A stretch of 64,000 nt of DNA from the NCBI GenBank assembly GCA_028015205.1, contig CM051516.1, positions 62,562,230 through 62,626,229 of the forward strand. The letters are read 5' to 3'. The translations under genes were made by a program, and so were the position numbers. Shown piece by piece: positions 1 to 63,117 of this stretch. Position 1 is the first letter of the stretch. Each line of letters starts with the position of its first letter. A model generated the notes under the pieces. It saw nothing but the letters and a program-made list of their open reading frames with translations, was not told the DNA's origin and did no database searches. The stretch is from Mytilisepta virgata. Lineage: Eukaryota > Mollusca > Bivalvia > Mytilida > Mytilidae.

Positions 1-3000
1 CACTTCCAGGTTCAGTGTGTTTTTCATCACCACAACAGCGTCTTGGCTCGTTTTCAGTTTGGCCTGTTCATAAACGATTCTGGCCAGGACCTCTTGCCGA
101 GGCAGGATTTTTCTATACAGGAACTGGGTGGGATGTTAAATGTTTTATGTGTGGTATAACAACATCTGTGGAAACGTGGATTCAGCCAGAAAAGCCAGGC
201 GAAGCACATGCGCGTTTAAATCCGCATTGTAAATACGTAACAGATTTCGGATATAAAAAACACGAATTTGCAGAGATTGTAAATTCAAATGCATTGCAAA
301 CTGAACCTGATGTACCGAAATTACCAAAGGCATCCTCTGATCAGAATAAACAAAGTAACATAAATAACACGTCACAAGGTGAAAATGAAGTACAGTTTAA
401 TAATGACGAAATGCCCTTAGAATCATCAGATTCTATTAATAAAAATAGTAATGTAGTTTTTGCCACAGACAATGTCTTTTCTCCTTACATGTATTGTTTT
501 AACCATCATGATTATTCACAAACGTTGTCACAAACTGGTCACCTAAATCTTTCGAATGACAAGGCAGGGGGTATTAATTCGAATGGGATGAATGACTTGT
601 TGAAATCTTCACCGGGTATAGTTGAAGTTGATGCCTTGAATGTGATGAACGAAGTCGCAATCGATAGCGAGGCATACGTTGAAAAATATTTAAAACCGCA
701 TTTTTCTTACAGAAGTTCAGATATTAATATTTTATCTAATACTGGATTAAATGAAAACTTCGACCGCGGTGTAGAATTATCTAACAAAGAACAGGTTCAT
801 CAAACCACAGATGCAAGGTATGGGAAGGTCACACCACCCTATAATAATGTAACAGTTGTTCGATACAAATATCCACAGTTAAAGACGTTTCAATCAAGAC
901 TAGAGTCGTTTGCAGATTGGAAATATTTTGTTAAACAAAATCCTGTCAATCTTGCAACGGCAGGATATTTTTACACAGGTAATACACATTTTTTATATGG
1001 AATTTTTTAAGCATCTTCCTTTAAGAATATTTTTGTAAACGAATAATCATTGTATGAATAATATAATGTAGGTGTGGATATGGATCCTCAGGACAGAAAG
1101 ATGAAGGTTTTGGGTTCCTGTTAAACACATTGTCAGTGTAATACAATAACAAATTAAATATAGTTTTTTATTCCTTCTTCGATCAAAGTGATATATTTTT
1201 GGGTACTTTGTCCACAAAATACCTCCGCGGTTTATAGTAGATAAAATAGATAATGGTATACTTTAAGCACTGACAAACACGACAAAGGGGGTGAAATCAA
1301 TCCAAAAAGGGCGAATCTACGTACCTTAACCATCTACCACTTATACACATGTTGTATTAAAGGGAAATAATTAGAACTCTCTTGGCTATTTCTTTCGTAT
1401 TGGTTACCAAGAATCATTTGTTTTTGATATTTCTGTGATGCTCTGGATTACAAGCTAGGTTTCCTATTCAGGTGGAATCAACATAATTGTTATAAATATT
1501 CGGAAAAAGTCATTATTTCCTGGAATATGTACGTCTTTTAAAAAGGTCCCTGAAATTATATAACCATTTTGTGATTTTATTAATAAATAAATGATTATCA
1601 TCTTAAGACTACCTACGAAGACCATCTTTGAAATTTGTTTAGTCTTGGATTTTTTATTTTGCAGGAGAAAGCGATGTAGTCCGTTGCTTCTGTTGTGATT
1701 TAGGATTGGCTGAATGGGATGAAAAAGATGATGTTTGGGTAGAACATGCCAGACATAGTTCTAGTTGTTGGTTTCTAAGACAAGAGAAAGGAGATGAATT
1801 TATCTATGATGTTCAGAGAAAATGGAAAAAAGTGAGTCCAACTCTATAATACCATCACATAAAACTTTTTGCCACTACATTTAATTGCATCTGTGTAATC
1901 ACAGACGCCACGGTCTGTTTTAGCAAAGATGAAAACGGACACAAATGGACAAACAGACACCAAACTATTGTAGAATATTCCAACACGTCTCACCGGAAAT
2001 GATTCTTAATTGATTTCTTCAAAATTGTATGAAGCTTTCCAGTCCTTTGAGAAACACAACACTCTTTTTGGTTTTTTTTTCTCGTAAAAAAAGAAGATAT
2101 TACTGGTAAGAAGTTTTAACAGGGTGTTTGGAGTGATGGTACCAACAAAGGTTGAACATAACCCTGTCTGAGAAGTGTACATTGTATACAGTCTATAAAA
2201 TATAACTGTACAATATGTATAAAGGTCTTCTTTCTACTAACTTTGTTATGGCACGTTTATTTTAAACTTTGAACATGTCATTCTGCTGGATAGTATCATT
2301 TTGAAAGAAATAAGAACTTATCTAAGCAAACATACCATATAAACTTTGATTATTAATTGTGTAGATATACAACCCAAAGCACCCTGTGTTTGAAGACAAA
2401 GAATTAAGATTATCGACATTCGAAGGAGTATGGAGAACTGATATTGAGCAGACCCCAGAGATATTGGTAGACGCTGGATTTTTCTATACAGGTGAGAGAT
2501 AAGCTAATAAATGTTTGGTTAAAATCACAATATTTAATTATAAAGCTGGCAATAGAAAAGATCACCAATGACATACTGGTCAATGAAGGCCGTCCAAACG
2601 TCAGACCTCCTATAAAGAGCAGTCCAAACGACATACTTCCTATAAACAGCATAGGGTCGGGATTAGGGATTAGGGATTAGGTTTATAATTATAGTATCAA
2701 GATAGTCTGACTTCGTACATGTACAGGCACATAGCATCGGATGGTCATGGTTTAAATATGTTTTGTGGTTAACCCTGTTCAGTTTTGACACTCTGGTATG
2801 TAAACAACTATAACAACCAATACATTATGATTTCCAACAAGGTGATATCTAACTAGTGTTGACCCTTTTCAAGACTAACTTTCAAATACTGGATACAGGT
2901 AATACTACGAATAACGTTGACGAATGTTTTATATATGATTGAAATGTTTCCTTCACATTCCTTATATATATATATTTCACTGTACTTTTGATCTTTTTAG

Positions 3001-6000
3001 GAGAAGATGACGTCGTCAGATGTCATTATTGTGATGGTGGACTCAGGAACTGGGAAAATGGTGATATTCCCTTGGAAGAACATGCAAGATGGTTTCCATT
3101 TTGTAAATTTGTTATTAAAATGAAAGGAAAAGAGTATATCGAAGCAATACGTCATAAAAACGAGGTAATTACGACTGAATCATGAACATGATTTTTGACA
3201 GTAAATTCTTAGCCAGGGCGTAAGTTTTCACTATTTGTTGGATAGAAAAAAACAAAATACATGCTTTATTTCATTCTTTACTAGCGATTATTTTTTGAAG
3301 AAAAGTTCTTGTGACCACAATTTTGCAAAGCCAAAAATTATTAATTAATTAACAGGTCGGCAATCAATCAGGTACTGTGGACGGGCTTTTATTTTTATAA
3401 TGCAATTGTATGCTCTTAAAGTTTAATAGTGGCATGTTTATGACAACTTGTATGTCTTTCCTCTACAGCAAAAAGAACGTAATGAGCAGATATTGAGTGA
3501 AGCGAAAGGTAAACATATGTTTCTTTAATACAGATATTAATACTTAACATTTACTGTTATAAAATTGTAAAATATGTGAAAACTAAGGAGTATCTCCGCT
3601 TTTTTAAAGAACTAACTGCTTAAATATACATTTCGTACTAAGTACATGTAGTTAGCAATTTAATTTGTAAATTTGTAAAACCGTAAATACTATTATAAAC
3701 TTTTTCGCTGATATTGTTTTACATATTGAAGAAGAAACGTTAAGATCTAGAGTTAAAATAACATATTTGAAATAAAACAGATAATACATAGGAATATATG
3801 TTCACCAACAAGATATATATTTCTTTTCAGATTCATTCGTCCACCATCCGTTCTTAAAACAATTAGAAGAGCTCTCTTTTCAATCAGAAAACATCATCTT
3901 CGCGATGAAAGATTTTACAAGAAAGGAAGGTAAAATTACCTTAAGTCTACTTATTATTGGAGCATAATGTAAACGAAGCATCTATGCAAGTAGTGTTATG
4001 ATTTAAATCGAAAAAGTCATAATATACAGGTAATATACATGTCAAGTACTGTGACGCCGTTTACTCTCTTAGCAACATCAATCACATGTGGATTCTAAAA
4101 AACTACAAAGAACTTTACAGTGTTTCAATATCTAAGGTGATGTTGGACCTGTTCCCACTGTCGTTACATCTCATGTGCCTCCACCGATTTGTCACTTCTA
4201 CCGGATTGACTTTGTTGAACTTCATGACGGGTGTCGTATACGGAGCAAGAACTGCTTACCCCTCCGGAGCGGCTGGGTTCACTCCTGGTTTTTATAGGAG
4301 TTCGTGTTCATTTTTTTTGTGTTTATTTGTTGTGCTTGAGGTTGTTCATTTGTCTTCCCGGGTTTGTCTGTCCAATGGATTACGTTTTTTTTTGCTCCTT
4401 AGGTATATTTGTATATTACGAACAATGTAGGTCACTCTCTAAAATTCATTCTATTAGAACATTTGATTTTTCAACAGGTTATACTAGTATTCCACATGTG
4501 CAATTAAAATACCGGATAAAAGAAATAATTCAAAAAGCTTTTAATTCTATTTTGGGCTACAAATACATTGTTCTGGAATATACTTCTACATACTTTACAA
4601 ATCGTATTCCTAGACGGAAAAACATTTTGTTCTGCACCGAGGTGCAGGTCATCAGTATGCTTGAATTTCTCATTGACAACATATTTGTGAAGTTCAGAGG
4701 AAATATATTACAGCAATTAGTCGGCATACCAATTGGAACAAATTGTGCCCCAGTGCTAGCTGACTTGTTTTTACACTCATATGAGACGAAGTTTCTTCAA
4801 AATATAGTAAAGGAAAAGAAAATAAAAGAAGCTAGGTCCTTAATTTCACCTATAGATATATTGATGATGTTCTTTCCATTAACAATCCTATCCTGACTTT
4901 GCAAAATAGATTCCATCAATATATCCTTCAGAACAAGAAATTAAGAAAACGACGGAGACCTCTTCCTCCTCCTCGTTCTAGACCTTAATCTAGAATATGA
5001 CAACAGTGGTCGACTAAACACCAAAATTAATGACAAGAGAGAAGATTTGAATTTTGAAATTATAAATTTTCCACATCTCTGTAGTAATATACCTGCTTTC
5101 CCAGCATATGGAGTCTATATCTTTCAATTAATTCGCTATGCTAAGGCTTGTAGCAACTACACGGAGTTCCAAATTAGAAATAAGCGTCTGAGCAGTAGAA
5201 TGATAAACCAAGGCTATGAGAAATCACGCCTTCTTCGTTCCCTACATGGAGTTCCAAATCAGAAATAAGCGTCTGAGCAGTAGAATGATAAACCAAGGCT
5301 ATGAGAAATCACGCCTTCTTCGTTCCCTACACGGAGTTCCAAATCAGAAATAAGCGTCTGAGCAGTAGAATGATAAACCAAGGCTATGAGAAATCACGCC
5401 TTCTTCGTTCCCTACACGGAGTTCCAAATCAGAAATAAGCGTCTGAGCAGTAGAATGATAAACCAAGGCTATGAGAAATCACGCCTTCTTCGTTCCCTAC
5501 ACGGAGTTCCAAATCAGAAATAAGCGTCTGAGCAGTAGAATGATGAACCAAGGCTATGAGAAATCACGCCTTCTTCGTTCCCTACACGGAGTTCCAAATC
5601 AGAAATAAGCGTCTGAGCAGTAGAATGATAAACCAAGGCTATGAGAAATCACGCCTTCTTCGTTCCCTACACGGAGTTCCAAATCAGACAAGCGTCTGAG
5701 TAGTAGAGATATGTTGACCACTGTTTACTGATGTGACTTATGAGTCGGTTGTTATAAAGGCTACTCATTTTAGTAAACAACCCAGAATTATAACAACCGT
5801 CATATAAGTGGGAGGTTTGGCATGTCGTAAAACCTGCATTAGCCCACCATTTTCATTTGAAAATGCATGTACAAAATAAGGAGTGTGACTGTTGCTTTCC
5901 AGTTGTTCTGGGTGTTTGTTTGACCTCCTACCTTGCCTGTTTTTGGACTTTGATTATGACATTTGCCTTGGAGTTCCATTTTTTGTTATGAAACTTTATT

Positions 6001-12603: not shown

Positions 12604-14264
12604 TCACGCAAAGTTTTTAAATGTTTGACCTGTTATTGGTGGTAATATCGCCACATTCCTTCCTTCAACTAGCTTACCACAGATGCAAACTCGTGTTGTA
12701 GTACATTCAGTACAGATCAGATGACCACATGGTTTATTTACAAATGCGAAGTTGAATTTGTTACACATAAAACACTTCATTTTCCTCTTAAGTTCGGCAT
12801 TTTCTTTCTTGAGTTGTTCCAAATCTGAAACGATCATAATAAGAATTACTGTCAGAACCGGCAATGATCCCCGCTCCCTCAGAAGTCCAAAATGTAAAGT
12901 CGTATCGCCCATCTCCATATGATGTGCATTCATTCATTCTATAAAGACAACATATTAAAAAACCCAATGAAAAATTCAACAATTTGTTAGTTTCTGTGTT
13001 GTCTTGTTCTAGTTTGGTTTAGTTTATTATAGGTTTTTTATTCTTTAAGTTATACATATTTCTTTGGCACTTTTGTTTGTTTTGTTCCATTCTCATGATT
13101 TTGTCTTTTCCTTGAACTTCGAATGTATTGCTTTTTCCGCTGTTTTCATGGTTTTGTCGTTTCGGTATTCTTTTACCGATATTTAGAAATCAAAATACTG
13201 AATACGACAGTAGTGTAAAAAATTAAAGTGCATAAGTTGAAAAAAGAAACATTTAGGTAATAAGTTTAAATTCACAATTTTCGAAATTCGACCCAGCGGA
13301 CCCCAAGTTTGAAAATCAAAATTAAAAAAAAACTTTATTCCCCACCTTAGAAGTGTATGATATCACAGTAAAGAAAAAATGCTACGAATTGAAAAATTTA
13401 GATTAGGTCACATGTTTTAATAGAAAATTTTCTGGAAAAGGAGTTTAAGTCAAAAGCTTAAAAATGGTATTTTATTTCTATAAATGCGGCACCTGTGGGC
13501 CCCAGTTTTGTTATTCAAAATAAGATAAAATATCTAGTCCTTAATGCGCATCTATATATTGTATGTAAACATTCTATGAAAAAATAACTTCATAAACCCA
13601 TAAATGAAAGGGAAGTTGAACCTTAGGTTACTATAAATTGTAACTTACAGGGACGAAGACAACTACAAACTACCCTAAACTTTCTTCGAAAAAGCGCGTA
13701 CAATAATGTCGTATATTTTTTGCAAAAGCTGCAATTCCCGACAAAGAAATAACTTTTGGTATTTCTAGACTTTTTCCTAGCTTTTGTTGGGAATGAATGT
13801 TTGCTTTTGTTCTTCTAATCTTCTAAATAGTGTTGTTAAATATACAGATTGCTTTATTTTTACACTTTTATTTGCTATCGGTTTAAATAAAAAAAGATTT
13901 GGATCAGATTAAATGTATTATCATCACATATCTTCAAGGTAAGCTGAAATAATTTCAGGTAACAAAATAAACTAAAGGGTTTGTTCCAAGTTGCACTAAA
14001 ATCTAATATATATTTACATAACAACGATTGTTTCGAGTCATTGTTGTGTGTAGTGGTCAATTTCCGTCGATCCTCTGAATCATGTTGTCTGTAATTTACA
14101 CTGATGAATGACGGACTGTCGGAACGTTTTCCTTGTAAAATGGAAGTTATAGCCTTTGATTCATCGTGTATTGTACCATTACCAGTAACAAAATTGTGGT
14201 TATCACTATGCTGTCCCCCAAAATCTAAAACATCTGGAGATTCATCTGGATTCTTCTCTGCCAT
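12604..14264 (-). CDS. Coiled-coil RING finger protein (IAP-related, no BIR)
   Basis: Two coding exons, 14264-14018 and 12824-12604, joined in phase 1 through a GTAAAT donor and a TTTCAG acceptor, give 155 codons plus stop. The first exon starts MAEKNPDESPDVLDF and is polar and probably disordered. The second opens with a short heptad-like helix (LEQLKKENAELKRKMK). It then has a compact RING: CFMC, an 11-residue spacer, CGH-x2-C-x2-C, and C-x-C as the last pair. This layout (helix then C-terminal RING) matches the end of IAP proteins, so it may be an IAP-derived E3 ligase that lost its BIRs. The start follows an acceptor (TTTACTTTTAAG), and the exon upstream at 15250-15373 appears to be 5' UTR. 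Further intermediate exons cannot be excluded. The intron carries a Penelope-like tail copy. Confidence 0.65.
12985..13190 (+). repeat. Penelope-like element tail copy in RING-gene intron
   Basis: Shares with 10690-10880 a run of matching blocks (TCTTGTT(C/A)TAGTTT, GTTCCATTCTC, TTTGTCTTTTCCTTG, CGTTTCGGTATTCTTTT). It is non-coding and opposite to the host gene. The remaining intron, 13191-14017, is AT-rich and shows nothing further. Confidence 0.6.
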
Positions 14265-25279: not shown

Positions 25280-27458
25280 TCAATTTGAAATTCTTGAGGG
25301 AAGCAACGTTTGGGTGTGAATCTCAGGTGGATTTGTCTGGAAAACGCATGAATCTTGAAAGACACACTTTGAACACACCAAATGACCACATGGAATGAGA
25401 ACAAATGCAAAAAGCCCATGTCCACATATGTAACAAGTGTAGCATCTAAGTTTTTTTCTTAATTCAGAATTTTCTTTTTTCAATTTCTGTAAATCTGTAA
25501 AGGTAGAAAACTGGATTAGAATAACATTTAAGAAATAGAATAAAGGCAAATACATAATACATGTAATACAGCTTTACTTAAGGCCTGACTGTAATTTTTT
25601 TTCAGTCTATGAAGAAATAACCTCAATCACGTGGTGCACACTAAATAACCCGCGTATTTGAAAGTGTGTGCACCATGTGCATGGAGGTTATTTCGAATAG
25701 AATGAAAACAAAATTATTGTCAATTCTTATAATTTAATTCCGGTTGTTTTGACGTGTAAAACATCGGGATACCCTTGCCTTTGACGTCATAGGAAAAAAG
25801 AAAATTTTAGTCTATGATATGACGCGTTACATCCAATATTAAATTATAATGGATAACAAGAAACATAAATAGAAATGGTGAGCTGTCAAAAGGGGCATAA
25901 AACGACTAAAATGTATGAAATACGCCTGTCGAACAAAACCAAATATAAAATCGTAAAAAAACAACAATCAAACTAAAAAGTTAAAAATACCCAACGTTTC
26001 GACCATTATGGTCTTGATTACGAGCGTGTAAAAAATAAAAATAAAAAGGTATTGACTCTTTGAAACCCAGAGCAAATTAATTATAATGCTTTAACTAAAA
26101 CTTCAGTTGACCTTATGCCATCCAATTAAACAATGACGAAGTTTTCTTTACTTTTTCATTTACTCCGAATGAAGTCGTTATCAAATACATGTATATGAAA
26201 GGATAAACTACACCCGATATTAATTGATGATTTGGAGGGTAAAATCCATTGCGGCAGTTTTCGACAAATTAACGTTCTAACAGAATAATATAGGAAAACA
26301 TGCAACCAAATTGAAACCAGAGGATCCCAGTAGCCTGTATGGCTCACTTGATATTTCCATTTGTTCATTCCTAAAGGACCGTGATATTAACATCCATGCC
26401 ATGTTTGTTTTCAATCCATTCAGTCATTTTCAACAAGAAGCTGTTTGTATGTTTTTCCAAGAGGGTCCTATGTTAAACTAAGTCCCCCGCTGGCCGCCAT
26501 TTTGGATGACAGATGAGCACCAAAGTAACAACACTTGGTAAGCAGCTCATAAGGAACATTCATTCTATGTTTGGTTTCAACCATTCTAGAAGATTTTCGT
26601 ATGTATTTCCCATAGGGTACAATGTTAAACTAAGTTCCCTGCTGGTGGCCATCCTGGATGAATGATGGCAACAAAGTAACAACACTTGGTGAGCACCTCA
26701 GAAGGAACATTCATGCCTTGTTTGATTTAAATCCATTCAGCATTTTTCTAGAAGAAGATTTTTGTATGTATTTCCCATAGGATCCTATGTTAAACTAAGT
26801 TCCCACTGTCGTAACCTTTCATGTGCCTCCACCGATTTGTGACTTCCCCCAGATTGACTTTGTTGAACTTCACGAGCAGGAGAAGGAACTGATTACCCTT
26901 CCGGAGCACCTGGGTTCACTCCTGGTTTTTATAGGAGTTCGTGTTGTTCATTGTTTTTTAGTTTTCTGTGTTTATTTGTTGTGCTTGTGGTTGTTCATTT
27001 GTCTTCCCGGGTTTGTCTGTCCAATGGATTACGTTTTTTTTTTTTTGTTGTTTTTTTTTTTTTTTTTTGCTCCTTAGGTATATTTGTCCTTTTCATAAAG
27101 TTAATTTTGTTGATAATTGCAATTCTAAAATAAACTCACAATTACTTTTCCAGAAACTGCAGACAGGTGAAGACCTATGCAGCAGATCTATATCACGAAC
27201 AGTCTCTTGAAATCTGACATCTATTGTTTCTGAACATTCATGACATTGAATAACGTTTTTTGTCAGTTGAATGAAGCCGTGCTCTGCTAAGGATTTGGGC
27301 CATGCTATCGGGAAATGTGACCACGTTGTAAAAGTATTTAATCGGCAAGTAATATGAGAAAAGGGAAGAAAGGGTTCGACTTCTCTAGGTGAATCTGACT
27401 GGACATTGCGTGTGGAAAGAGTTCTAGGTTCAGCTGTAAAACCATCAAGTATATCCAT
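25280..27458 (-). CDS. Small one-BIR RING protein (IAP family, RING damaged)
   Basis: Two exons on the minus strand, 27458-27146 and 25494-25280, have a phase-1 GTAATT donor and a TTTACAG acceptor and give 175 codons plus stop. The first exon starts MDILDGF and holds a divergent BIR: RLNTFTTW, SLAEHGF, CHEC, then HRSSPVC. That last His-Cys spacing is five residues, one less than the usual six. The second exon opens with a helix (LQKLKKENSELRKKLR). It continues into a RING with CYIC, an 11-residue spacer and CGH-x2-C-x2-C, but the last pair reads C-x-F where the paralogue at 12604 has C-x-C. So one zinc ligand is missing. It may still be expressed as a BIR protein with a weak RING, or be a young pseudogene. 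The 1.65-kb intron carries a retroelement tail, a tandem array and a palindrome. Extra exons are not excluded. Confidence 0.6.
25598..25710. repeat. Palindromic MITE-like hairpin
   Basis: GAAATAACCTC...CACGTGGTGCACAC on the left faces GTGTGCACCATGTG...GAGGTTATTTC on the right with a short loop. Weaker pairing extends outward (TTTTCAGTCTAT / ATAGAATGAAAA). It lies in the intron of the BIR-RING gene. Confidence 0.65.
26440..26805 (+). repeat. Tandem repeat, about 150-165-bp units
   Basis: TATGTTAAACTAAGT(T/C)C recurs at about 26470, 26622 and 26787, followed each time by a GGCCATC(C/T)TGGATGA-type block and AACAACACTTGGT. It is related to the arrays at 32270-33050 and 41960-42950. It runs into the Penelope-like tail at 26800. 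Confidence 0.7.
26800..27095 (+). repeat. Penelope-like element tail copy with long poly-T
   Basis: Full tail block as at 4130-4430: TTCCCACTGTCGTAACCTTT, GGAGCACCTGGGTTCACTCC, CCCGGGTTTGTCTGTCCAAT and AGGTATATTTGTCC, with an expanded T-run at 27032-27068. It is inserted in antisense in the intron of the BIR-RING gene, about 50 bases from the BIR exon donor. Confidence 0.75.
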
Positions 27459-30434
27459 ACCTCTGCCTCTTGGCTATCCAATTGGCTGTGAAACAAAATG
27501 TATTTTAAATTATATACAATGGAATATTTGAACAAGTATTTCCATGAAATAAGTCAAAACAGTAGGAAGAATAAAAAAAGAACTATCAGTTTCATGTTTG
27601 AAAATCAACCGTCAGAGAAATTTCAATAAAGCTAACAAGGTAGGCGTATTGGTGCATTTCTTTTTGTAAAAGCCGTAATAAACATAGATCAAAATAAAAG
27701 CCTTTCACATAATAACGTGACCGAAAGCTTAAATAATTTCCTCAGATACAGAGTATTATTGATTAACAAGTGAATTATTATTGGCTTCAATACGACTAAA
27801 ACTGTCTTTTCAATACAGAATAATTAACTCGGCCAATGTCGAAAAACCCCGGCCAATAAGGCTGATTCGATTTTCTCTAGATTTTAGTTTGAAAACATAC
27901 GAAAACTCCGAAACTACATTTTATATAAATGTATACATGGTCTGCGATTAAAGGTGCTTTAAAATTGATAATTATAAATTATTCAGTAATAGCTCTGACT
28001 AAAAATATCTTTCATAATCCTCATTCTAATTCTTCAATGAATATACTAGAGAAGAGTTAGTTCGGAAAAAATTCATACAGAATATGCATTGTGAAAACTA
28101 GTTAATAAAGATATCATTAGGTGGTTCTGTCTGCATTGGCCTTGTTTTTTGGTCCTCGGTCAGCTGTACAGCAAGCCTCGGACCAATAACAAGGTAAATA
28201 CAGAAACAACCAAGTAATATCATAGTTTTGTGACAGACTAAACTCATCCTCCTAGTTGTTGTAAGAACAAATTCCAATACCGTTTACACATGGGTAAAAA
28301 AAAATGAAAATGTAAACAAACCAGCAATATGAACATGTTTTGAAGTGATAGAATGTACATTGTAGTTTCGTTACCATTACCAAAATTAAATAAAAGTAAT
28401 AAGGACAACACAGGATACTTACAGGTCTACTCTAGTGTGTTGATGAAGGCAGATACATATATGTGGATGAGACACTCGTCACTCCGGAAATTGTGCATTA
28501 ATACCTTCCGTGTTCGGTATTTTTTTTCTTTTTATATATATTTTGTTTACTATATATACAGTAGTCGTTACGGGGATTGTCTTTTAAATATTTCTAAACA
28601 AATGCTTACTAGAAATTCATCTGACATTAAAAAGCTTTTTTTACAAATAAGCTGGGACCGTGGTACTTCACAGAGGATTCTGTACATGTATAAAACTGGG
28701 AAATGTTTTCTAATGTTTTTTTCAGTTTCAAATTATAACATAAACTATATTGCTTCTCTGACCGTTTGGATAATTAATGCCAAAGCTTTTGTTCAACTCA
28801 ACATGAATTTGTTGTTTCAGGTAAGGTAGTATAAAGAAAGACTAAACAAATATATCATCCCTACCCCGGGATCCTTACCAAACATTTTATAAAATAAACC
28901 TTGTAGTCGTAAAACACTGGACATAATCGGGAGATTCTCGGTTTTATAAGGTCAACAATGACATATTAATTAATTAATCAAATGGACAGATCCTCAGATA
29001 ACAAGACCAAAACCGGTTCTGGACCTGCGTTGAAGCCCCGGTCGAAGCATGCAATTCATTGATCGGCAAACAGGGGGTGGCTGCACGACAAATCCACAAA
29101 TTGCTTACACGCTCAACTCATTATCAAGCTGCAGACAAAATATAAAATCAGTCCCTTTTTGTAGAAGCCAAGAAAATTTTGACAGTTTCCTACCCAAGGT
29201 CTTTCGGACGGACGAACGGACAGTCAAGCAGTTACCTGGTTATTAGACCTGCTTAGCCGTTGGCGACGCTTACCTGGTTATTAGACCTGCTTTGCCGTTG
29301 GCGACGCAGGTAGAAATAACGTAAGAGCACAATACACAAAGATAAAAACAGGGAGTCAGGATCGTCTGACTTGGTACAGGCACTGAGTGTTGGTGGGGTT
29401 TTATGGGTACCCAGACATAACATGTATGGAATGCTCCCTGACACATGGCCCCATTCAATTTTTCAAAACGCTGCTTGGCGTCAGTGAAATATCAGAGCAT
29501 GTATTTGATGTCAGGACAAGAATTTCATTCATTAAATATTAGTAAAAAAAAAATGGACCACCGAAAAATAAGTCAAAATTTATTTTGATGTACAAACTTA
29601 CCAAATCTTCATAATATGTTAATTGAGTTGTATCAGTATAAATTACTATTTAATGGTTTTGAAATAAAAAATGTGATCACCCTACTGGCTATGTCAGAAT
29701 TATTTCCTGTTTCTCCTTCAAGCACATGTCACTAATTTGGTTTTCTTTATTACAGGCTCACGTTTAGTGTTCTTGCACTGTAAACACAGGGTAAGGCTAA
29801 TCCATTTTGGAAGAGAAAAGATAGCGGGAATGTCTTTTTTCAACCAATGAGGACCAAAGCTATGTCAATGCAACTTAAAACAAGTGATTTATTTTGTTTT
29901 AATCAGAAATAAACACACACATTTATTTATTTTCCATGAATGAACTACAATAATTTTAAATTACATTGCACTAAAAAGAAAAATCTTATTTCACATCGGC
30001 ATGTTTTTGTAAAGCTTCCTTTGAGCACATAGCATTACAGTATTGTAATAATGATAGATCCAGCTAGGAAGACTAGAAAATATAAAAAAATTAGCAAGCA
30101 GTCATAAAATATATCTCATGTAAATAGATATTCATGGTGACAGATAAAAATAATTTAAAATACATGAAAAGTTTAAAAGGTATGCAACTCCTTATTCAAT
30201 ATTTAAATATATGATCATTTATTTAAACAGAGGACATCTTCAAAAAAGAAAAAGAATGAAAGATGAAAACTACAGGCAAAGATAAAACAATTAAAGGTCT
30301 TTTAGAAAATAATTATCAAATTTCAATAAAATATAGTATCTCAGTCACATCCTTATGGGACTCTTGTCCATCAGCTATTCTTACAAAACAGGTATAACAA
30401 AAGCAGTCCATCGATATCATAATTGTTTTATGTG
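27459..30434. other. Intergenic between BIR-RING gene and ZMPSTE24
   Basis: No supported gene. A 158-codon frame at 28353-28829 (+) is T-rich and shows no domain. A strong minus-strand donor (GACCT|GTAAGT) near 28425 could end a 5' UTR exon of the BIR-RING gene, but this is speculative. The hairpin at 28120-28215 is listed separately. A 45-base direct duplication (CTTACCTGGTTATTAGACCT unit) lies at 29229-29308. Confidence 0.5.
28120..28215. repeat. Palindromic MITE-like hairpin
   Basis: CCTTGTTTTTTGGTCCTCGG on the left pairs with the reverse complement of CCTCGGACCAATAACAAGG on the right, and GGTTCTGTCTGCATT pairs with AATACAGAAACAACC further out. The loop is about 12 bases. Confidence 0.65.
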
Positions 30435-48084
<17,650 letters not shown>

Positions 48085-52368: not shown

Positions 52369-55300
52369 TTACACAATCTTTATCTGACAAAGTGGTCTGT
52401 ATTTGTGGGAACAAGCAACATTTTGTAGACCCATTGTGTACGAATTGCTGTTTTGATAAAAATGGTATACTGCAATCATACAGAAACGGTTGTCTGTGTT
52501 CCAATGTCTGACAAACATTTCAGGCTCCATTGGTATTCCGGTGGTATCCCAAACCCACTGAGGTCTTGATCTGGAGTGACTGACGTCTGTCATTCCTACA
52601 TAACCTTGGAATTCTTTAATTAGAAACGAACAAGTATATTGTTTCTGTTTAAATGATAACTTTAAGATAAACATGCAAATAGTTATAATTCGATACTAGC
52701 CCAAAATTGATACTTTGAATTTACTGCTACAAAAAATATTAAATTGTGTGAACTTAAAAGTGTCTCCCTCGATATTGTGCTTAGCTCTGCTGTATATTGT
52801 GTGAACTTAAAAGTATCTCCCTCGATATTGTGCTGAGCTCTGCCCCTAAATTGTGCGACTTAAAAGTATCTCCCTCGATATCGTGCTTAGCTCTGCCCCT
52901 ATATTGTTTGAACTTAAAAGTATCTCCCTCGATATTGTGCTAAGCTCTGCCCCTATATTGTTTGAACTTAAAAGTATCTCCCTCGATATTGTGCTAAGCT
53001 CTGCCCCTATATTGTTTGAACTTAAAAGTATCTCCCTCGATATTGTGCTAAGCTCTGCCCCTATATTGTTTGAACTTAAAAGTATCTCCCTCGATATTGT
53101 GCTGAGCTCTGCCCCTAAATTGTGTGAACTGAAAAGTCAAAAACGAAATTTGCACACATTGTGCAGCAAACTTAATACCAAAGAATTCATCATAGGTAAT
53201 GAAAAGGTTTTACTCTAAGAATTCGCTAGAAAATTTTGAAAAATAATTCAAAATTCCTTGTTTTATGTGAATGTAGTACAAACAGCAATGATTTGTCGAA
53301 TAGACATTATATTGTTGAGATGATTTTAATAAAATCATAAGAAAACAATACACAAAGGAAATAAAGTGATAATCAGTTTTATGTAACATACCTGTACTTG
53401 ATACATGAAACAGTCTCTTTGAATATTTTAAGAATTCTTGTAACTCAAATGTGGTGTTAAATTCTGCTAAATGGGAACATTTTTGTTTACAATATTCCTA
53501 AAATTAAGTAGATGAAACGTGTTAGATACTTAGATGTGTGTACTTTTACCTTTTACCGTGCTAGTATTCCCTAGTTACTAGTGTATATATATGCAATATA
53601 CCATGTACATACATTGTTGGAAAATATATAGTTTATACGTGACAAAGGCTAGAAATGAAAATTTTACCGAGGACCTTGTAGATATACGCAATACTTTGTT
53701 TTTATCCTCCAAGTTATTTACTGTAAAATTATTCTTTCAACTATTAGCTGAAAATTCGTCTAAATTGAAAATAGAAACTGTATTTTTCTGGTATTACATA
53801 ACGTATTGATTATAATTTACGAATGTAAGTACATGTAGGGCTTGGTTTTATTGTTTAACCAGGAATGCAGGATTTTTGGGGAGGTTAGAGTATTGTAAAA
53901 ACATTTTGAAGCCGACGCCACATTCTGTGTCATATTAAGCCAGGACCGTATATATTCATTTGTAGCTCTTATCTACTACATATATAAATTATTCTTTTTA
54001 TTTTGGATATGAAGTTACTTTTGTCTTGTTAGATTTTTTTATGCTTTTTTTTGATACATTTAGCGCTTTTTTGAAGTGTTGAAAAATGCTGAAATTAACA
54101 CAGCAATCCCAATAAATCCCTTCGAGATCTTCCTAAGATACATTGAGCATTATGTTTTTTTCAGGGGTGATTAAATTTCATAAATATCTCCATTAAAAAA
54201 ACTAATCCGACCAGAAATATTTAAATACATAACTCACTTTACTTTGGTCTTTGTTCATGACAGAATCACCAAGATGGTAGCAGATATTATCTAGCGAATG
54301 AAACCCTATTGGGCACCGAGATACTTTGTCACAACCTGAAATTATGAAACTAGTGTTATGATCTTTACGGAAACTTTTCATTGGATAATTTATTATTTTC
54401 GATAAACTGTTGGCGTGTCCGACATTTTAAAGTTTCAGTTGTAATTTTTTAAATTATAAATATGTACAAAGCATACAAGACTAATTTTCATATAATTCGA
54501 GAAAGTTTATTTGTTTTATATTATATTTGTGTAAATATTTGCTTTTATTTAAATGTAAGCCAACAATTGTGTTTTGGTATACAGACCTGGTGCCTTTGTC
54601 GTGATAGCTGTATGTGTTGGCTTTACACTATCAGTCGTCGAAGTGTTTGCATTACATTTCTCTCCAATACAGCATTTCCCTTGGAATGAAAATGTTTGTC
54701 GTCTTCCTAAGATATCTGTTCCCGAGTTACGGAAATTATGACAAATCTATAACAAATGGGAATTAAATGACAAAGGTGACGTAAACCATACATAGAATGA
54801 TTATATTTCGTACAATCATTTAGATTTATATAGAAACAATATGTTTCAAACAAGTACATACTTTGTGATATTGCACGTTGAACTATTTTTAGAAACATGA
54901 TATATTACCCAGTGAAGCACCATAATTGTATAATATTTCGTTGTCACTATTTTCGTCTTTTATTTCAGAAAAAAGTATATGTCAACCATCAATTACATTT
55001 AGTAATGAAAACGACATTATAACACCAGCTTCATTTAGATCATCAGTCTAAGCACTTGTGACGGATTACGGGAGCTCATCCCACAGAGCTACCTAGCGCT
55101 TCCCCAGGTAGCGGATAGGGGAGACCTTCTCTTTTGGGGGTTGTCAGGTCATAATACGGAAAGCATGACCGCGGACAATAGTGAGTAACGTATTTTGAGA
55201 ATGCCACACTCCCTCCACACCAAACACTCCTTCTGAAGTTTTCGAAAAAGAGTAGGCTAATGTCGCTACAGAAAGCTAAATTATCCGACCTTACCCATCC

Positions 55301-58300
55301 ATCCACCCTTTTACTGTGGCGGTCAAAATCGGTTTCCTTCTGTGTCCCGCCACATCCTTATTTAAATTGTTTGATAAATTGTGGAACTGGTTATCGTCCA
55401 GAAGAAAGAAACAATTCAAATTCTATCATTAGTAGATAACAATTAAACAACTCCATTAATTTTTTTATTAAACATTATACTGAAATTATTCATTTTTATT
55501 ATTATAATTCGATAAAACTAAGTAGAAACATTGAAAATCATGAAAATTAATACAGGTTGTAAATACGTTATTGATGAATAATATTTTACCGAACTGTCCA
55601 TACAACCTAATCTCAAGGCAGGCTTTAGTGCATGTGTCAGAACTTCCATTGTGAAACATTCCTACAGGGAAAACAAATATCAAATTGTACTTATATTGCC
55701 GTAAAAGTATAATACATGTTTTTACGCATATAATCATGATAAAAGGTTTTGAAGTAAGTAGAATAAATTTCAATTAATAGTTTATAATTAAATGTATTGA
55801 ATCCTAAAGTAAGCACCATATAAAGGCGCTAGAATGATCCATAACTGTACCAGTTTGGTTCAATTTTGAATTGCTTTTTACTGACTTATTCCTGGATCCA
55901 TTCATTTCTACTAGTTAAACATTTTTTTTTTATATTCCCAGCTTCAATACAAGAAAAACGTTTTAAAAACTTATTATTGTGTACTATGTTTATGTAAGTT
56001 TAGGTGTAGAACCATCTTGTCAAGTGGTCAGGGTCATCAGACACAATTATGAAAAAGGACCATGGTTGGCAGTCTGGTTTATCAGAAAATTCTGAAAGAG
56101 GACCGCCTAAGGATTATCGCTGCCTAGATAGTTCCAAGGTTTAGCCGGATGACGGACGACAAACGACGGACGCCAAGTGATGAAAATAGTTCACATTTTG
56201 GCTAGGTGAGATAAAAATGAGAAGCATAATGTACAAGTCTCTATTAAAGAATGCCAGAGAACGAGTTTCCCATAATGAACCATGGCCAAGACAATACTTG
56301 TCGACTTGTAAATATGAGGGGAAAAACGGATATGGAGTAAAATGTGGAGAAGACAAGATGCCTTTCTCCGAAGACCAATAAAAAAAGACATCCAGTGGTC
56401 ACTACGTGAACTATGTGGCAAGGTCTATATGGCCCAATAACCATATGGTATATAACCAGTTGAAACAGCACAGTAAACAATCATCAAATAAGGTTCAGAA
56501 ACTAAGGTATACTAGAAATTCCAGCGACCAAAACATTCATTAGGGTTAAAATAGTTTTGTTATTTATGTTATGACAAGTGATCGTATGGTTGTAAACAAA
56601 TAGCTAAAATCTACAATACTTAAATTGCCGAGCAAATGGCAAAGTGTCACAATTCAAATAATTTTTTATTCATGTAACTTGCACGTGTTAATATCTTAGA
56701 TTATTCTTTTGATTCGTTGCAAATATGTATGAAGATGACTAGAACAACAGAAAGGGAAAGAAAAGGTAAAATTGTTGTACTACCTTGCCTCCATTGCATT
56801 CGACTGTTGTGTTGCATTTTGCTGCACTATCAACCTCATCACATGATAGACAATTGTCTTAAATATAACAAAGAATCAATCAATCATATAGCGATAAATT
56901 AAGGAGAAAATGCATTTATTGATTATATGGTCGTATTGCATTGCTATTGTTTCATATTTATTGTATTTCTCTTTCTGAAGACGAAAGATCTCAAATACAA
57001 ATCTTATTATACATCACACCTCATGTACGAATAAGGCTTATCTTGTTATCAGAAATGCAAGTATGAAAATAGCTAGAATTAAATAATAGTAAAGAAAAAA
57101 GTATGCACAAGCTCAATCAAGACTTGTAGTTCCAATAAAAAATTACTACCTCACTTGGCCCCCTTTTTCTCTTCCAAATTATTGCCCCCAGAATGTACAT
57201 AACAGTCTCATAGTATCATATACGTTTAAACTATTGTTCTTGCATTTAAAAATTTTGGTTACCGTTAACAAGATACATATGGATGAAACCCAATATACTT
57301 ACAACACGTCCCACAAGTATGAGGACAGATGGTATTTGCTATACAGCCATCTGAGCACATGTTTGGTATAATTGTAGAGATTCTTCTACAGACAAGGTCT
57401 TTACATAGAGATCGGTTCTGTGATTTATCTGTGTAAATAAGGTTCATATCAGGGAAGTTTGAATACATAAACCGTAGAAAAAAAATATTACTATAATTTT
57501 TTTCATATAACTCCGTTTTAGATTAGAACAGTTTGATCGAAACTTAATTGTAACCCTAGCCTCTAATTTGGAATGCATGGTACATATGGTATGCACGCAT
57601 GTACAGATCAAAGCTTAAGATTATAACAGATATCAGGAGTCAATCTGATATTTTTCGTTGTTGTTTTTCACCGACAACTGATAAAACCGGAAAGACGCCA
57701 CATGCAGTTTTCGATTTCTTAGCGAAGGCGTATATTAACAAAAATAAACATTGGTACATTCGGATCTAGAGGATTTAATCTTTTCAGGTAACTCAGATGT
57801 TTACGGATTTCATAGTCCTTTTTTTATCATTCATGTAGTCCAGTCAATCTAGCATAAATTTGACCCTAACCTTAAAGTAATTGCAAAAGCAGATTTTTAA
57901 GTTTTAATCTTTAGCATTATACCCCAAATATACATAGAAAAAAGTCCAACAAAATCTAACTTGAGGAAAACTAAAAAATCACGATTTTAAAATTCCTATG
58001 GAGATTTGCATTGAAAATGGGAGATAACTCTGCAAAAAAGGCAGAAATATCAATAAAAATTGATACAAAATTATAACTTTACCGCTTCTATTCAGGAGAA
58101 TGTATTGATTCTTGATATTTTAGCCGTCTTTAGAGTATAACAAACAACTCCAAAGGTGTTTTCATATCTAGAACCTAGATTTCGTAATTCATTAGTTGAC
58201 CATTTATTAAATTTTTCAACATGTCAAGGTAAAGAATCTCAAATTTAATAAAAATGATTAAGCATATATTATTCTTTTTGTGGTTTAAAGTTTCTTTAAA

Positions 58301-61300
58301 CAAGGTAGATGCTGAACAAATATAATTTACAGATATAAACAATACCAAATTTTCACATTATTTTTTCAAAATGGTCTCAAAGCCACAAATTTGCAATTTC
58401 TTTAATGAAAAATGTGCAAAAAAATAAAAATACCCATAACACTTCGGTTTTGTACATTTCATGAGCAGAAGATTATATAATATAGTCAAATACGAACTTA
58501 TAACCCCATCAAAGTATCATACTTTACATGAATTTTAAGAAAATCAACTAAAAACTGACCAAAAAAACTAAATTTTGCGGAGTTATCTCCCCTTTCTAAT
58601 GTTAATTTCCATAGGAAATTAAACATGCTGATTTTTAGTTTTCCTCAAGTTAGATTTTATGAGGCTATTTTCTGCGTATATTTGGGCTTAATGCTATAGA
58701 TTAGAACTAAAACATTTTCTGTTGCAATTACTTTGAGATTAAAACTTAGTTTGACTGGACGCTATCAGTTTTTAACAGTTTTTTATTCATTGATAGTCAT
58801 TCGATATTCTAAAACTGTGAAAATTTCTACACCGGAGTGTAAGCTTACCATGTACAGGTATTTTTGTAGTTGAGGTTGTAATCTTTAACAGAACTGGAAG
58901 ATTGTTATTGCACTTGTCAGAGTTACAACACCCTGCTTCTATACTAACACGTTTGTGTGAAATGGATGAATACTGAAGACAGGTCTACAATTTAAAGAAA
59001 GCGCAAAATTAATGTATTCATAGAATTTTAACTTAAACTTAGCACTATACACTATATTAATTGTCTGTTTAAAATTAATGATAAGTCAACCATGTATTGT
59101 ACCGAACCAACACTCTGAGATTCATTTTCAATGTCGCAGCGACGTAACACACCCCTTCATTTTACTAAATGAAAAAAGAATTAGTAAAATAAAATAAAAC
59201 ACGTCGTATATTTATATAAACGGCCAAACTTGTAAATAAATAAATAAATAAATAAAAGTTGTATATAAAGTACATACTTTCCGAGATCCACAACCAAGTC
59301 TATAAGTTTCTTCGAAGTGGTCGTTGAATGTTTGAACAGTAAAACAGAACTGTAAAAGTAGAAGTCAGTTAATATTTCTGACGAATCATGGGCGGTTCCA
59401 GGATATCTGAAAGGGGGGCGTATATTAAAACTTTCAATGTCGCAGAAAATTTTTTTTTGACATTTTTTTTGTTAAAAACATAAAATAATTGTGAAATGCA
59501 CTAATGTAACGGTTCCTGACCTGGAGCATGTATATTTTAGAGTATGTGTTTAATGAATGAATATGATAAATTGCCATATTCAATTCAATATAAGCAGATT
59601 ACGATAGTTTTTTTTTGAAAAGGGGGGGGGGGGCGTACGCCCACTACGCCCTCACTTGGACCCGCCCCAGCGAATGAGTACAGAAATCTTATACTGGGTG
59701 TTTGTATTCTGTACTGGTTTATTGTAATCTTTGATTTGTTTGTCGTGATATGCATTTTATCTTCTAGATTGGATTTCAGATATCCTTGTCAATTTTGCGG
59801 TTATCATATGTAATAGAGATTATTAATAAACCTTTTTTTACTGATTCTTAGAAGATAAATAAATTTGTATTAGTACACGATATATATATCATAGTCCCCA
59901 TCCTGAAATATTTGTACAATGCTTACGAAGAGGGAAATAAAAATATTAGTACATGACGACACAGCGACAGATGCTTTGATACTTCAAAGGCCTTCCCTTG
60001 AATTTTTCAATCAATCCTATATTTGAAACAACCCCGATTACGTCTTTAATAAATTAGAAAATATTGTCCTCAGAATATTACACTGTATGTGTCATATGGA
60101 TTCCAATTGATTAGTTGGCAAACTATGAATTCATTTTAGATGTTTTATACACTGACTTCAAAAAGAATTGAATGTAATAATTTGCTGAGTAGAAAACATT
60201 GAACCAATAAGCTGAAGGAGAAAATCAAAAGCCAAAACTATAAAGATAACGCGATCTCAGTAGAACGAGATAATATTTTATCAAGAAATCAAAATTAAAA
60301 CTTAAAAGTTAGACCTATGATTAAAATAAATAGTAGATAAATTGAAAACAGAAAACGGTAATACAAATGATAGGACGTGAAGTTGTTTAGAAGTATACAA
60401 ATATCTTGTAAAAACTACGAACAAAACTTACCTCATCACTTGAATTACACTGCATAATAGAGTGACAATTTGTAACATCATCTACTTCATGGCAACTGTA
60501 GCAAATCAAGGCTGGAATTGTTTTTTTTTTTAAAGAATATCAAATATTTCAGAAAGATATATTATTGAAGTACATCAGCATGTTACATATGAAATATGAA
60601 TATAAGCACCACGTCTGCTCAATTACTAGTATTCAGAAACTGTAGAAGCCATAAACCAAAGACTTGTCAGGTTGTTAACTAGGAAGTTAGCATTTTAACT
60701 ATACTAACCCTACTGAATGTCGTAAAAGCTGCATCAGCAGATTTTTCATCTAATTTGTTATCTCAAATAAAAAACAGTAAAATCTATATTGTTCATGTTT
60801 TTATTTAATGTTGTCGTCATCTTAATTGTAATTTCGAATCTGCATGTAGACTAAAAGTATTTAATCACGTCAAACCTTTTATCTAAAAGATGCATGTACT
60901 AACACCAGGGAAGAGATATTTGTTTTGTAATGTTGGGTTCTACTAACCATTAAATGACCTGTTTCCATTTTTGATATTTTGCAACCTAGTGTAGATATAG
61001 AGCCTCAATTTTATCATATTTTTTAGTTGAAATAGACAGTTTGACGTTACATACGACATTTTCCACAAAATCTTGTACATAATTTCGCCATACATGGGTC
61101 GTCACACATATCTGGTTTATATTGTGCCATCATATGACACAGCTGAGTGTCTTTATCTGAACATAATCCAGCAGCATCGCAAGTAATTATACACAACAGG
61201 ACAATTATTACTGCAAGATGGAAAAGAAATGTTTATAGCAGTGTCAAATTAAATATATTTTCACTAGATTGATACAAACAAACATGATACATCTATAAAT

Positions 61301-63117
61301 ATGATTGGTTAAAAAATTATGAAATGTCACCAGTAATTCAATGTTTTTTGTACATATTCAAATTGTCTGAGTGCCAAGAAAATGCCTCTGATATACATTA
61401 GAATCTTCTGTAATTATTTGTAGAAAACAAATTATGTAACTGGACTGCACAGACATTAATACAGAGCGAAATAGCATTAATAATGACACCTATTACATTC
61501 TACAGTGTATTTCAAAAGTTTGTTGTCGTTAAAAATTTTACCGTTGAATCCAATTAATGCTAAAATTACATACAAAATATTAACCGTAAATTATAAACAC
61601 GGCTCTAAGTACTTTGTATTTTCAGCTGAAAATTGAAATATCTATATCTATATTTATATCGGACCATTCTAAAACGGTTCTAGGGCAGAACAAACCCTGC
61701 CATAAATGGTTCTGAGGTAGAACCGTCATAAACGATTCTATAGTAGAACTGTTCAGAATGGTTCTAGGATAGAATTGTCATTAATGGTTCTAGGTCCGAA
61801 TTACCTATAGTATATAATTTTAGAGCAACTATGCATGAAGCTGGTTGATATGTCGAAAAGACGATTTTTCAGATTTTGAAATAAGTAAACCTCAGAAAAG
61901 TCTTGGTAATTTGATGTATCAAATTGATAAACTACCTTAAATTCTTGATTATGCAGGTGATATTTTTTACTTTTTTTATTCTAGAATTTACAAAATACCT
62001 GTAGACAACAACATTCACTTCTAACACCGCAACTATCTTTATAGGCTAACAAAAATACAAAACTACAATTTCAAATTGTATAACCACACGACAGTGCCAT
62101 GTGGTGATTTTATTTTCTAGAAATAACATCGCATCAAATTTTACCGCCTATCATGCGATAAATAAAGAAGTCACTCATGAAAAATTATATCTGTAACATT
62201 TAAATTCCACAATATAAGCAAGATAAATATAAGAAAAACATGTCCATATGAGTTGCCCCTGTCGTGCTGAATGACTGGATACTTGAAACGTGGGAAAACT
62301 AGCTAACGGTCTATGGGAAGACAATTAGAAGAAATTAATTGCAATCTAATTCAGTCCCTTCAAACGATTGAAATTGCATTGTTCTCTGCAAACTATTACG
62401 GTATGTTAAAAGCTGATTTGAAAATTACGACAACAAGTTAATTATTTTATTTCTTGTAATTTTGATGTTCAAAAGTCATAAACTTACAAAATTTCTGTTT
62501 TGAACAGATGCAATTTCTAGCGTTTGCTCTTGATAATTTGATGTTAAACTTATAATATACCGTAAATTCATGACCTTACCGGTAAGATTTTACATTATAA
62601 CTCTACGGGGTATTACGGTAAATAAAACAGCTAGTGTTAAATATAAACTAAATAAAGTATCGCCATAAATGGTCCTAAGATAAAACTGTCAAAAATGGTT
62701 CCAGGAGAGAACTGTCATAGATGGTTCTAAAAGTGTCAGGATGACGTTCTAGAACAGTTTTTTGGACAGTTGAGGACAGTTCTAGAGATATGTTAAAATT
62801 GAGCCCAGATGTAATTTGCGCCCGCCCGACAGAACAATGAATAAATAATGATGAAAACAAATGAAAAAAAATACAAAATTCGTGTTTCATATGAAAGAAG
62901 TGAAACGGTGAATTTAATTCTGCGCAAAACATTCCTACACAAAAGGCCGATGTCCATGCAGAGAACGGCGATTTAATCACACTGAGAAGAGAACACTTTT
63001 TAAAAATCATGGAATAGAATTGAATATATTTCTGACGTAACTTACTTCTATAAACTTTAAAAAATAAAATGATTTTAATTTGGCAAAATTACCTGTATAC
63101 CTGTAGAACTGAAACAT
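52369..63117 (-). CDS. Secreted ShKT - Ly6/uPAR - ShKT - Ly6/uPAR - C-type lectin protein, complete, 12 exons
   Basis: Exons (- strand): 63117-63093, 61210-61055, 60511-60432, 59349-59278, 58984-58849, 57428-57303, 56857-56784, 55661-55590, 54746-54587, 54335-54238, 53497-53392, 52604-52369. All have AG/GT borders, compatible phases and a sum of 446 codons plus stop. Residues 1-23 are a signal peptide (VIIVLLCIITCDAAG). ShKT-like 1 is 25-60 and 2 is 165-198, each with seven Cys (one more than canonical) and a similar C-x10-C-x3-C core. Ly6/uPAR 1 (64-137) and 2 (201-279) each have ten Cys and end in CCNSDKCN / CCIGEKCN. Thr/Ser-rich linkers follow both. The C-type lectin domain (about 302-446) has CPIGFHSLDNICYHL, KQKCSHLAEFN, PQWVWDTTG and VACSHKYRPLCQ. 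No clear EPN/QPD or WND calcium motif is seen. There is no membrane segment, so it is probably secreted and likely binds glycans or proteins (inference). Exact ligand unknown. The intron between exons 5 and 6 holds a transposon copy. Confidence 0.85.
52743..53135 (+). repeat. 54-bp minisatellite, about seven copies
   Basis: AACTTAAAAGTATCTCCCTC recurs every 53-54 bases from 52751, with GATATTGTGCTAAGCTCTGC in each unit. Since 54 is divisible by three, the plus strand has an open frame of 18-residue repeats (SISLDIVLSSAPILFE core). It lies in the last intron of the lectin gene, antisense to it, and is probably non-coding. Confidence 0.9.
57838..58760. mobile_element. Non-autonomous DNA transposon with long inverted ends, copy 2
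   Basis: Nearly identical by eye to 40970-41905 over its whole length, in the same orientation, with the GTCCAGTCAA ... TTGACTGGAC ends. No transposase. A TA lies on the left flank, while the right flank reads GC, so a TA target duplication is not confirmed. Host: intron between exons 5 and 6 of the ShKT-Ly6-CTLD gene. Confidence 0.8.
61660..61800 (+). repeat. Imperfect minisatellite (AATGGTTCTAGG family), array 1
   Basis: Repeated (A/T)AATGGTTCT(A/G)(A/G)G - TAGAA(C/T)(C/T)GTCAT units of about 33-40 bases. The same family recurs in the same orientation at 62655-62790. Both lie in intron 1 of the lectin gene, about 1 kb apart. Confidence 0.65.
62655..62790 (+). repeat. Imperfect minisatellite (AATGGTTCTAGG family), array 2
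   Basis: CATAAATGGTCCTAAG, AAAATGGTTCCAGG and ATAGATGGTTCTAAAA units alternate with AGAACTGTC blocks. Direct-orientation relative of the array at 61660. Confidence 0.6.

Follow-up and report, generated by a model that had tools for sequence, protein, structure and literature searches.

A bivalve protein family joining ShKT-like, LU/Ly6 and C-type-lectin-like domains in one chain, from a locus of Mytilisepta virgata

In the 64,000-nucleotide stretch of Mytilisepta virgata contig CM051516.1 analysed here (the window), a gene of 12 exons, rebuilt from the sequence, runs on the minus strand from 63117 to 52369 and comprises 449 codons plus a stop, with no internal stop (Table 1). All 11 introns are GT..AG, the exon borders having been placed by reading the sequence, so that the splice signals and the open frame hold partly by construction. 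Intron phases are identical in module A (exons 2-5) and module B (exons 6-9), namely 1-1, 1-0, 0-0 and 0-1, and the exons of the C-type-lectin-like domain (CTLD) start in phase 1. With the Mytilus californianus protein P0001 as tblastn query, which begins within ShKT-like domain 1, the best match per exon recovered exons 2-12 in order at 46-77% identity, together with weaker cross-matches between modules A and B. The modelled exon 1 (25 bases) is tentative, being one of six candidate first exons 5' of exon 2, and no homology support was found for it; the donor of exon 9 is non-consensus. A preliminary description of this DNA had proposed a twelve-exon join without a stop and with agreeing splice borders and phases, which the rebuilt model and the tblastn search bear out, at three codons more than the 446 it had counted. 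No second cassette or LU2-CTLD block was seen in the window: with the window protein and P0001-P0012 (12 relatives) as queries, all tblastn matches lying elsewhere than in the gene had E values of 0.41 or more, and the 5' side is barely covered because only 883 bases of the window lie past exon 1. Rfam (gathering threshold) and ARAGORN returned nothing on the window.

Table 1. Exons of the gene model, with positions in the window
Feature	Position	Strand	Basis
Exon 1 (tentative): start codon and first 8 signal peptide codons	63093..63117	-	model; 1 of 6 candidates
Exon 2: remaining signal peptide and ShKT-like domain 1 (7 Cys)	61055..61210	-	P0001 (part), P0002 match
Exon 3: LU/Ly6 domain 1, first part	60432..60511	-	model and tblastn
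Exon 4: LU/Ly6 domain 1, middle	59278..59349	-	model and tblastn
Exon 5: LU/Ly6 domain 1 end (CCxxxxCN) and most of linker 1	58849..58984	-	model and tblastn
Exon 6: linker 1 end and ShKT-like domain 2 (7 Cys)	57303..57428	-	model and tblastn
Exon 7: LU/Ly6 domain 2, first part	56784..56857	-	model and tblastn
Exon 8: LU/Ly6 domain 2, middle	55590..55661	-	model and tblastn
Exon 9: LU/Ly6 domain 2 end and Ser/Thr/Pro-rich linker 2	54587..54746	-	model and tblastn; donor GTCTGT
Exon 10: C-type-lectin-like domain, start	54238..54335	-	model, Pfam, tblastn
Exon 11: C-type-lectin-like domain, middle	53392..53497	-	model and tblastn
Exon 12: C-type-lectin-like domain end and stop codon	52369..52613	-	model, Pfam, tblastn

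The encoded protein is ordered as putative signal peptide, ShKT-like, LU/Ly6, ShKT-like, LU/Ly6 and CTLD, and its hydropathy, read with the tentative exon 1, fits an N-terminal signal peptide without a transmembrane segment. UPAR_LY6 (PF00021) matched two stretches with 34.7 bits against a cut-off of 24.8 (36 and 26.6 bits when the domains were scanned singly), and a match at E<=1 was present in all 12 aligned family members; the ten-cysteine Ly6/uPAR assignment made earlier stands. Ten cysteines and the CC-x4-CN ending were found in both LU domains of 13 of the 14 proteins (the window protein and 13 relatives), the garbled P0003 giving none; in LU2 the ten-cysteine pattern also took the last ShKT-like Cys, and three residues were trimmed at the front of the LU2 rows for the tree, which makes these rows begin with the LU Cys. 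The cysteines, the ending and the above-cut-off Pfam score are shared with LU/Ly6-uPAR three-finger proteins, but here the LU domains sit in a larger, probably secreted protein, alternate with ShKT-like domains and are followed by no hydrophobic C-terminal tail.

The label ShKT-like reflects the terminal C-x3-C-x2-C pattern and two helices predicted with middling confidence. The plain ShKT label of the preliminary description is weakened by the extra seventh Cys, invariant in 17/17 copies, and by Pfam, as ShK (PF01549) matched neither window copy at E<=1 and one of the 17 family copies at E 4.6; these 17 are from 25 copies found, the other eight being near-copies set aside by our choice and not by result. 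Among solved structures there was no significant match, the ShTK protein 7l2g being a weak one (E 0.69). ShKT-like domains have been described in secreted mucus proteins, namely ShKT/SXC-bearing mucins and limpet P-vulgata_14, which resembles the window protein in having a ShKT-like together with a C-type-lectin-like domain; their ShKT domains have six cysteines as against seven here, and P-vulgata_14 has metallopeptidase, ApeC, CUB, Kringle and Sushi domains, with no LU domain listed in the available text (PMC7333891).

Lectin_C (PF00059) scored 26.8 bits against a cut-off of 22.6 when the CTLD was scanned alone but went unreported for the whole protein, so that the lectin domain named earlier is recovered in the first scan and not in the second; 2 of 12 family members scanned whole were matched, and the fold was found to be that of a CTLD. 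In structures predicted for the relatives' proteins, confidence was low outside the CTLD (block means <=74 in one model and <= about 50 before the CTLD in another), and strands were predicted for the LU domains with low confidence. No ShKT or LU chain was among the best 50 matches listed per fold search, which is no evidence against either fold because the CTLD fills these lists. EPN or QPD, and WND, are motifs of calcium-dependent sugar-binding C-type lectins. In a string search these motifs were absent from all ten CTLDs considered (P0003 was excluded, as were P0002, P0006 and P0013, whose CTLD is missing or cut); by sequence the domain does not class as a calcium-dependent sugar-binding C-type lectin, and it may bind sugar by another route. 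CTLDs of the NKR-P1, LOX-1, CLEC-2 and mincle type, which belong to vertebrate cell-surface receptors, share about 13-20% identity with it in a different domain context. Identity to the Ca2+-independent bivalve C-type lectins SPL-1 and SPL-2 of Saxidomus purpuratus (PDB 6a7t, 6m5m, 6a7s) is 14-16%, and unlike the window protein these chains of about 137 residues are a CTLD alone.

Protein searches found 13 relatives. They come from mussels, oyster and scallops, apart from P0004, an uninterrupted 500-codon frame in a contig of <=1665 bases that is presumably a transcript. P0005 (499 aa) aligned at 30% identity over 100% of the query (E 3.2e-55). Mytilus californianus LOC127725323 has the same domain order as the window protein, with 58% identity over 92% of the query, and so have Crassostrea gigas LOC105331275, Mizuhopecten yessoensis LOC110456467 and LOC110456457, and Pecten maximus LOC117328010 and LOC117328011, the Cys count of these proteins also being the same where they are complete. 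The domain order first proposed is right, and its suggested confinement to the mussel lineage is not supported, the same order being present in oyster and scallops. Outside mussels, oyster and scallops the protein searches named no homologue, under a name filter that is imperfect (P0011 and P0012, both from oyster, escaped one search although another had found them). All nine complete members have 42 cysteines, counted from the first one of ShKT-like domain 1 to the C-terminus. Linkers are short (16-27 residues) in the window, M. californianus, M. edulis and oyster proteins and longer in scallops; linker 1 of M. galloprovincialis, in a suspect model, has 196 residues. The names that relatives carry are "uncharacterized" or alike, one Argopecten member being "mucin-2-like" and one cut-off name beginning "B-cell differe". 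As the preliminary description had supposed, no account of this domain order was found, here in the open-licence literature with the terms used; in the available text of PMC9125321, uPAR is mentioned solely in the reference list.

Chains that include the CTLD are P0001 in a mussel, the complete oyster and scallop proteins, and P0004. A product ending after the second Ly6 domain, which the preliminary description had named as evidence against itself, is seen in part, in the M. edulis record P0002 (302 aa, without CTLD); its last residues, as judged from the P0002 protein, are compatible with read-through of the next intron. P0006 and P0013 stop within the CTLD and are probably models running into an intron. 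The M. coruscus model P0003, in which a 16-residue repeat occurs about twelve times within LU2, was excluded from two of the alignments, the LU tree and the domain table. Because relatives with all parts are present in public protein sets, it is confirmed that the gene is real and that its exons are joined by more than chance, as had been claimed; the earlier interpretation as a whole is partly supported.

In the LU tree, LU1 and LU2 separate into two clades (support 99/97), which shows, as far as a short tree can, that the (ShKT-like + LU) pair was duplicated before the mussel, oyster and scallop lineages split. M. galloprovincialis P0013 groups in the LU1 tree with oyster and scallops (94/88), apart from the other mussels, a placement that makes an older gene duplication likely and leaves orthology unsettled. 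The CTLD was the least conserved domain in 36/36 protein pairs, and in 33/36 with conserved cysteines excluded, these pairs sharing members among nine proteins of which six are scallop or scallop-like (P0001, P0002, P0003, P0006 and P0013, five of the 14, were left out for a missing or cut domain). Such a fast-changing CTLD suggests a recognition role without proving it, and would also fit relaxed constraint. In oyster, two proteins share 198 identical residues and then diverge, a single N-terminal half being continued by two unlike LU2-CTLD halves.

We tentatively favour, at a little under an even chance, a secreted, disulfide-rich, multi-domain recognition protein made of a scaffold with a variable head, a function that we infer. 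The (ShKT-like + LU)x2 part would be a stable scaffold binding a host partner or matrix, from which Ser/Thr/Pro-rich linkers, perhaps O-glycosylated, would hold the CTLD away as a ligand-binding head. This head may bind its ligand without a classical calcium site, as in SPL-1 or CTLDs of the NK-receptor type, and the extra, seventh Cys in both ShKT-like domains could form a twenty-first disulfide, bridging the two modules or making dimers. We would place the protein in body fluid or mucus, in a probably immune or mucosal context, given the fast change of the head and its apparent exchange in oyster. Possible, if on the unlikely side, is the broader proposal that constant scaffold and exchangeable head constitute a previously unnamed diversity system, in which ShKT-like/LU/ShKT-like stays fixed, the LU2-CTLD block of exons, entered in phase 1, is duplicated and alternatively used in oyster and diversified by gene duplication in scallops, and the odd Cys pair clasps two modules or molecules.

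It is unlikely that the protein instead serves structurally in mucus, byssus or shell matrix, its Cys-rich modules cross-linking a gel and its CTLD binding matrix sugars or mineral with no recognition of foreign bodies, for the linkers are short in the window, M. californianus, M. edulis and oyster proteins, and divergence sits in the CTLD, not in the Cys-rich part. A role in gamete recognition, or as a seminal or egg-coat protein, is quite unlikely; the LU domains would then act like Bouncer and SPACA4, which are LU proteins, and the fast CTLD would be a species barrier. Bouncer and SPACA4 do function in fertilisation (available text of PMC8488580) and the CTLD is indeed the least conserved domain between species, yet a species barrier needs no exchanged head within one oyster species. 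Improbable too is a soluble regulator that would engage an ion channel, receptor or protease through its LU or ShKT-like domains, with the CTLD only localising it. The LU protein SLURP-1 modulates nicotinic receptors (PMC5709491, in part) and the mussel digestive gland has putative metalloproteases with ShK domains (PMC5549309, in part), in agreement with this idea, but Pfam found no catalytic domain in the window protein, and the Lys-Tyr pair, a dyad that matters in ShK (available text of PMC7333891), was seen by eye in 0/17 aligned ShKT-like copies. That two adjoining genes, one for a (ShKT-LU)2 protein and one for a CTLD protein, were wrongly joined, as the end of P0002 and the exon 9 donor might suggest, is very improbable given that P0001, the complete oyster and scallop proteins and the frame of P0004 each hold all parts in one chain.

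Three common extracellular domain types are brought into one fixed order across mussels, oyster and scallops, in proteins under no telling name, and 42 cysteines, repeated phase 1-1 modules and an eight-cysteine CTLD define a family open to searches and tests. Should the two LU2-CTLD halves of the oyster be real splice forms, they would represent a further bivalve route to vary a soluble lectin-like head, and would bear on how invertebrates diversify recognition.

On the minus strand between 63117 and 52369, 12 exons join without a stop, as the preliminary description had it, although the spliced length is 449 codons plus the stop rather than 446. GT..AG bounds all 11 introns, partly by construction, the borders having been set by reading. 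In a tblastn search of the window that did not use this model, the Mytilus californianus relative (P0001) had a best match at every exon from 2 to 12, in the right succession and on one strand, with weaker cross-matches between modules A and B as well, bearing out the earlier view that this is not a chance join. Exon 1 alone depends on sequence only, 63117..63093 being one of six candidate first exons upstream of exon 2. The phases of module A (exons 2-5) recur exactly in module B (exons 6-9), thus every ShKT-like exon and every three-exon LU (Ly6/uPAR) unit is symmetric, phase 1-1, the usual signature of exon shuffling; exons of the C-type-lectin-like domain (CTLD) likewise start in phase 1. 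Pfam profiles recovered the LU and lectin domains proposed earlier, UPAR_LY6 with 34.7 bits (cut-off 24.8) and Lectin_C, when the CTLD was scanned alone, with 26.8 bits (cut-off 22.6); Lectin_C was not reported for the whole protein. The linkers measure 27 and 22 residues (Ser+Thr+Pro 33% and 50%); the longest in the family, at 252 residues, belongs to a scallop relative that bears the name mucin-2-like.

Features of the window protein and of the window
Feature	Position	Remark
Predicted signal peptide	N-terminus	
ShKT-like domain 1	residues 25-60	
LU/Ly6 domain 1 (LU1)	residues 64-137	linker next
ShKT-like domain 2	residues 165-198	
LU/Ly6 domain 2 (LU2)	residues 201-279	linker next
CTLD	residues about 302-449	
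AATAAA	52352..52357 (-)	11 bases past stop codon; possible polyadenylation signal, though very close
Tandem array, intron 11	52743..53137	7.4 copies, 54-base unit, 94% matches
Open frames, BIR domains and RING-like end	3..1007 (+), 27096..27473 (-), 12607..12933 (-)	Pfam
Open frames, Peptidase_M48 (39.7 bits) and Peptidase_M48_N (36 bits)	34149..34496 (-), 43806..44165 (-)	Pfam
Adjoining open frames	4228..4893, 4945..5265	first looks like reverse transcriptase on visual inspection; neither matches Pfam at E<=0.1
Tandem array	5157..5707	6.5 copies, 85-base unit, 98% matches; starts within 4945..5265

Searches of 5.8 billion proteins (6, 12 and 11 rows per search) returned 13 relatives in total, from the mussels M. 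californianus, M. edulis, M. coruscus and M. galloprovincialis, the oyster Crassostrea (Magallana) gigas (2 proteins) and the scallops Mizuhopecten yessoensis, Pecten maximus and Argopecten irradians (2 each), together with P0004, placed among scallop sequences in the LU tree; a restriction to the mussel lineage, as first suggested, does not hold. Nine proteins, the window's included, are complete from the first ShKT-like cysteine through the CTLD end, and the other five are cut or garbled models. No paper with this domain order, for which the preliminary description knew of no described protein, was found in a full-text search of open-licence literature, and we therefore file it as known domains in an undescribed yet widely held combination.

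Chains ending after the second Ly6 domain, which the preliminary description counted against its architecture, are represented by P0002 from M. edulis, whose last seven residues are absent from P0001 and appear to be a reading into the intron, the phase being a fit. Since exon 9 of the window gene has a non-consensus donor, GTCTGT, and read-through appends 11 residues and then a stop, mussels may have a form that lacks the head. On the other side, P0004 has 500 codons, its longest contig being 1665 bases; because the window gene has many introns, we take it to be a transcript, which would support one continuous chain. P0003 (M. coruscus, 420 aa) carries about a dozen repeats of the 16-residue unit VSPDKCxTTTECNxGK within LU2, perhaps a minisatellite over exon end and donor annotated as coding, and in P0013 (M. 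galloprovincialis, 533 aa) linker 1 is repetitive and the CTLD ends early.

When 26 LU domains from 13 of the 14 proteins were placed in a tree (200 bootstrap trees), one branch parted 13 LU1 from 13 LU2 (support 99/97, present in 100% of bootstrap trees). Although the alignment is a short one of 85 columns and the program cautions that long branches meet, the split accords with the fixed domain order; duplication of the ShKT-LU pair therefore probably predates the divergence of mussels, oyster and scallops. The window protein joins the M. californianus and M. edulis members (LU-domain identity 66-78%; branch support 91/81 and 94/95, not starred), a placement that points to a mytilid distinct from those two species. 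P0013 lies farther off, with 41-53% identity to the window protein by domain and an LU1 that sits with oyster and scallops, which suggests two or more family members in mussels.

Counting the first ShKT-like cysteine and all those after it, each of the nine complete members has exactly 42 (7 + 10 + 7 + 10 + 8 by domain in the window protein). Seven cysteines are invariant across 17/17 aligned copies of the ShKT-like domain, versus six in ShKT, the extra one apparently being the fourth by spacing. As an odd number in each of the two domains leaves one pair, we predict a disulfide joining the two ShKT-like domains, or two molecules. To the usual six, the CTLD adds one cysteine immediately ahead of the domain and a second, four residues past the first helix cysteine, a pattern seen in 11 of 14 proteins, the remaining three stopping before or within it.

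Identity is lowest in the CTLD in 36/36 pairs of complete proteins (mean 37% versus 57-64% elsewhere), and in 33/36 with conserved cysteines excluded (34% versus 51-56%), which we read as a trend rather than a test because pairs share members and six of the nine proteins are scallop or scallop-like. It shows most plainly in the Argopecten pair, with 98% identity in LU2 and 57% in the CTLD, and in the oyster. The two oyster proteins (P0011, P0012) are identical over 198 residues, past ShKT-like domain 2 and three residues beyond the position that corresponds to the window gene's exon 6/7 border, and share 64% (LU2) and 32% (CTLD) thereafter. The simplest reading of these sequences is one oyster locus with two alternative LU2-CTLD blocks; a recent gene duplication, with one half shared or mis-joined, is possible, and no sign of a second block turned up in the window.

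Elsewhere in the window are pieces of inhibitor-of-apoptosis-like genes: frames whose BIR matches score 70.3 and 23.9 bits against a cut-off of 22.9, and a RING-like end that at 22.3 bits stays under its cut-off of 27. The peptidase frames probably belong, as exons, to a single CAAX prenyl protease gene (ZMPSTE24-like); going downstream from the twelve-exon gene on its own strand, this is the next one seen.

We propose that the window protein would be secreted, as predicted from hydropathy only, with the two ShKT-like/LU modules making up a stable base, the linkers serving as stalks and the CTLD acting as a head that may meet variable ligands. For a lectin-like head that changes fast and can be exchanged, in an animal that feeds by filtering, immune or mucosal use would be the likeliest setting; its rivals are gamete recognition, a part in mucus or in the shell matrix, and the regulation of receptors or proteases.
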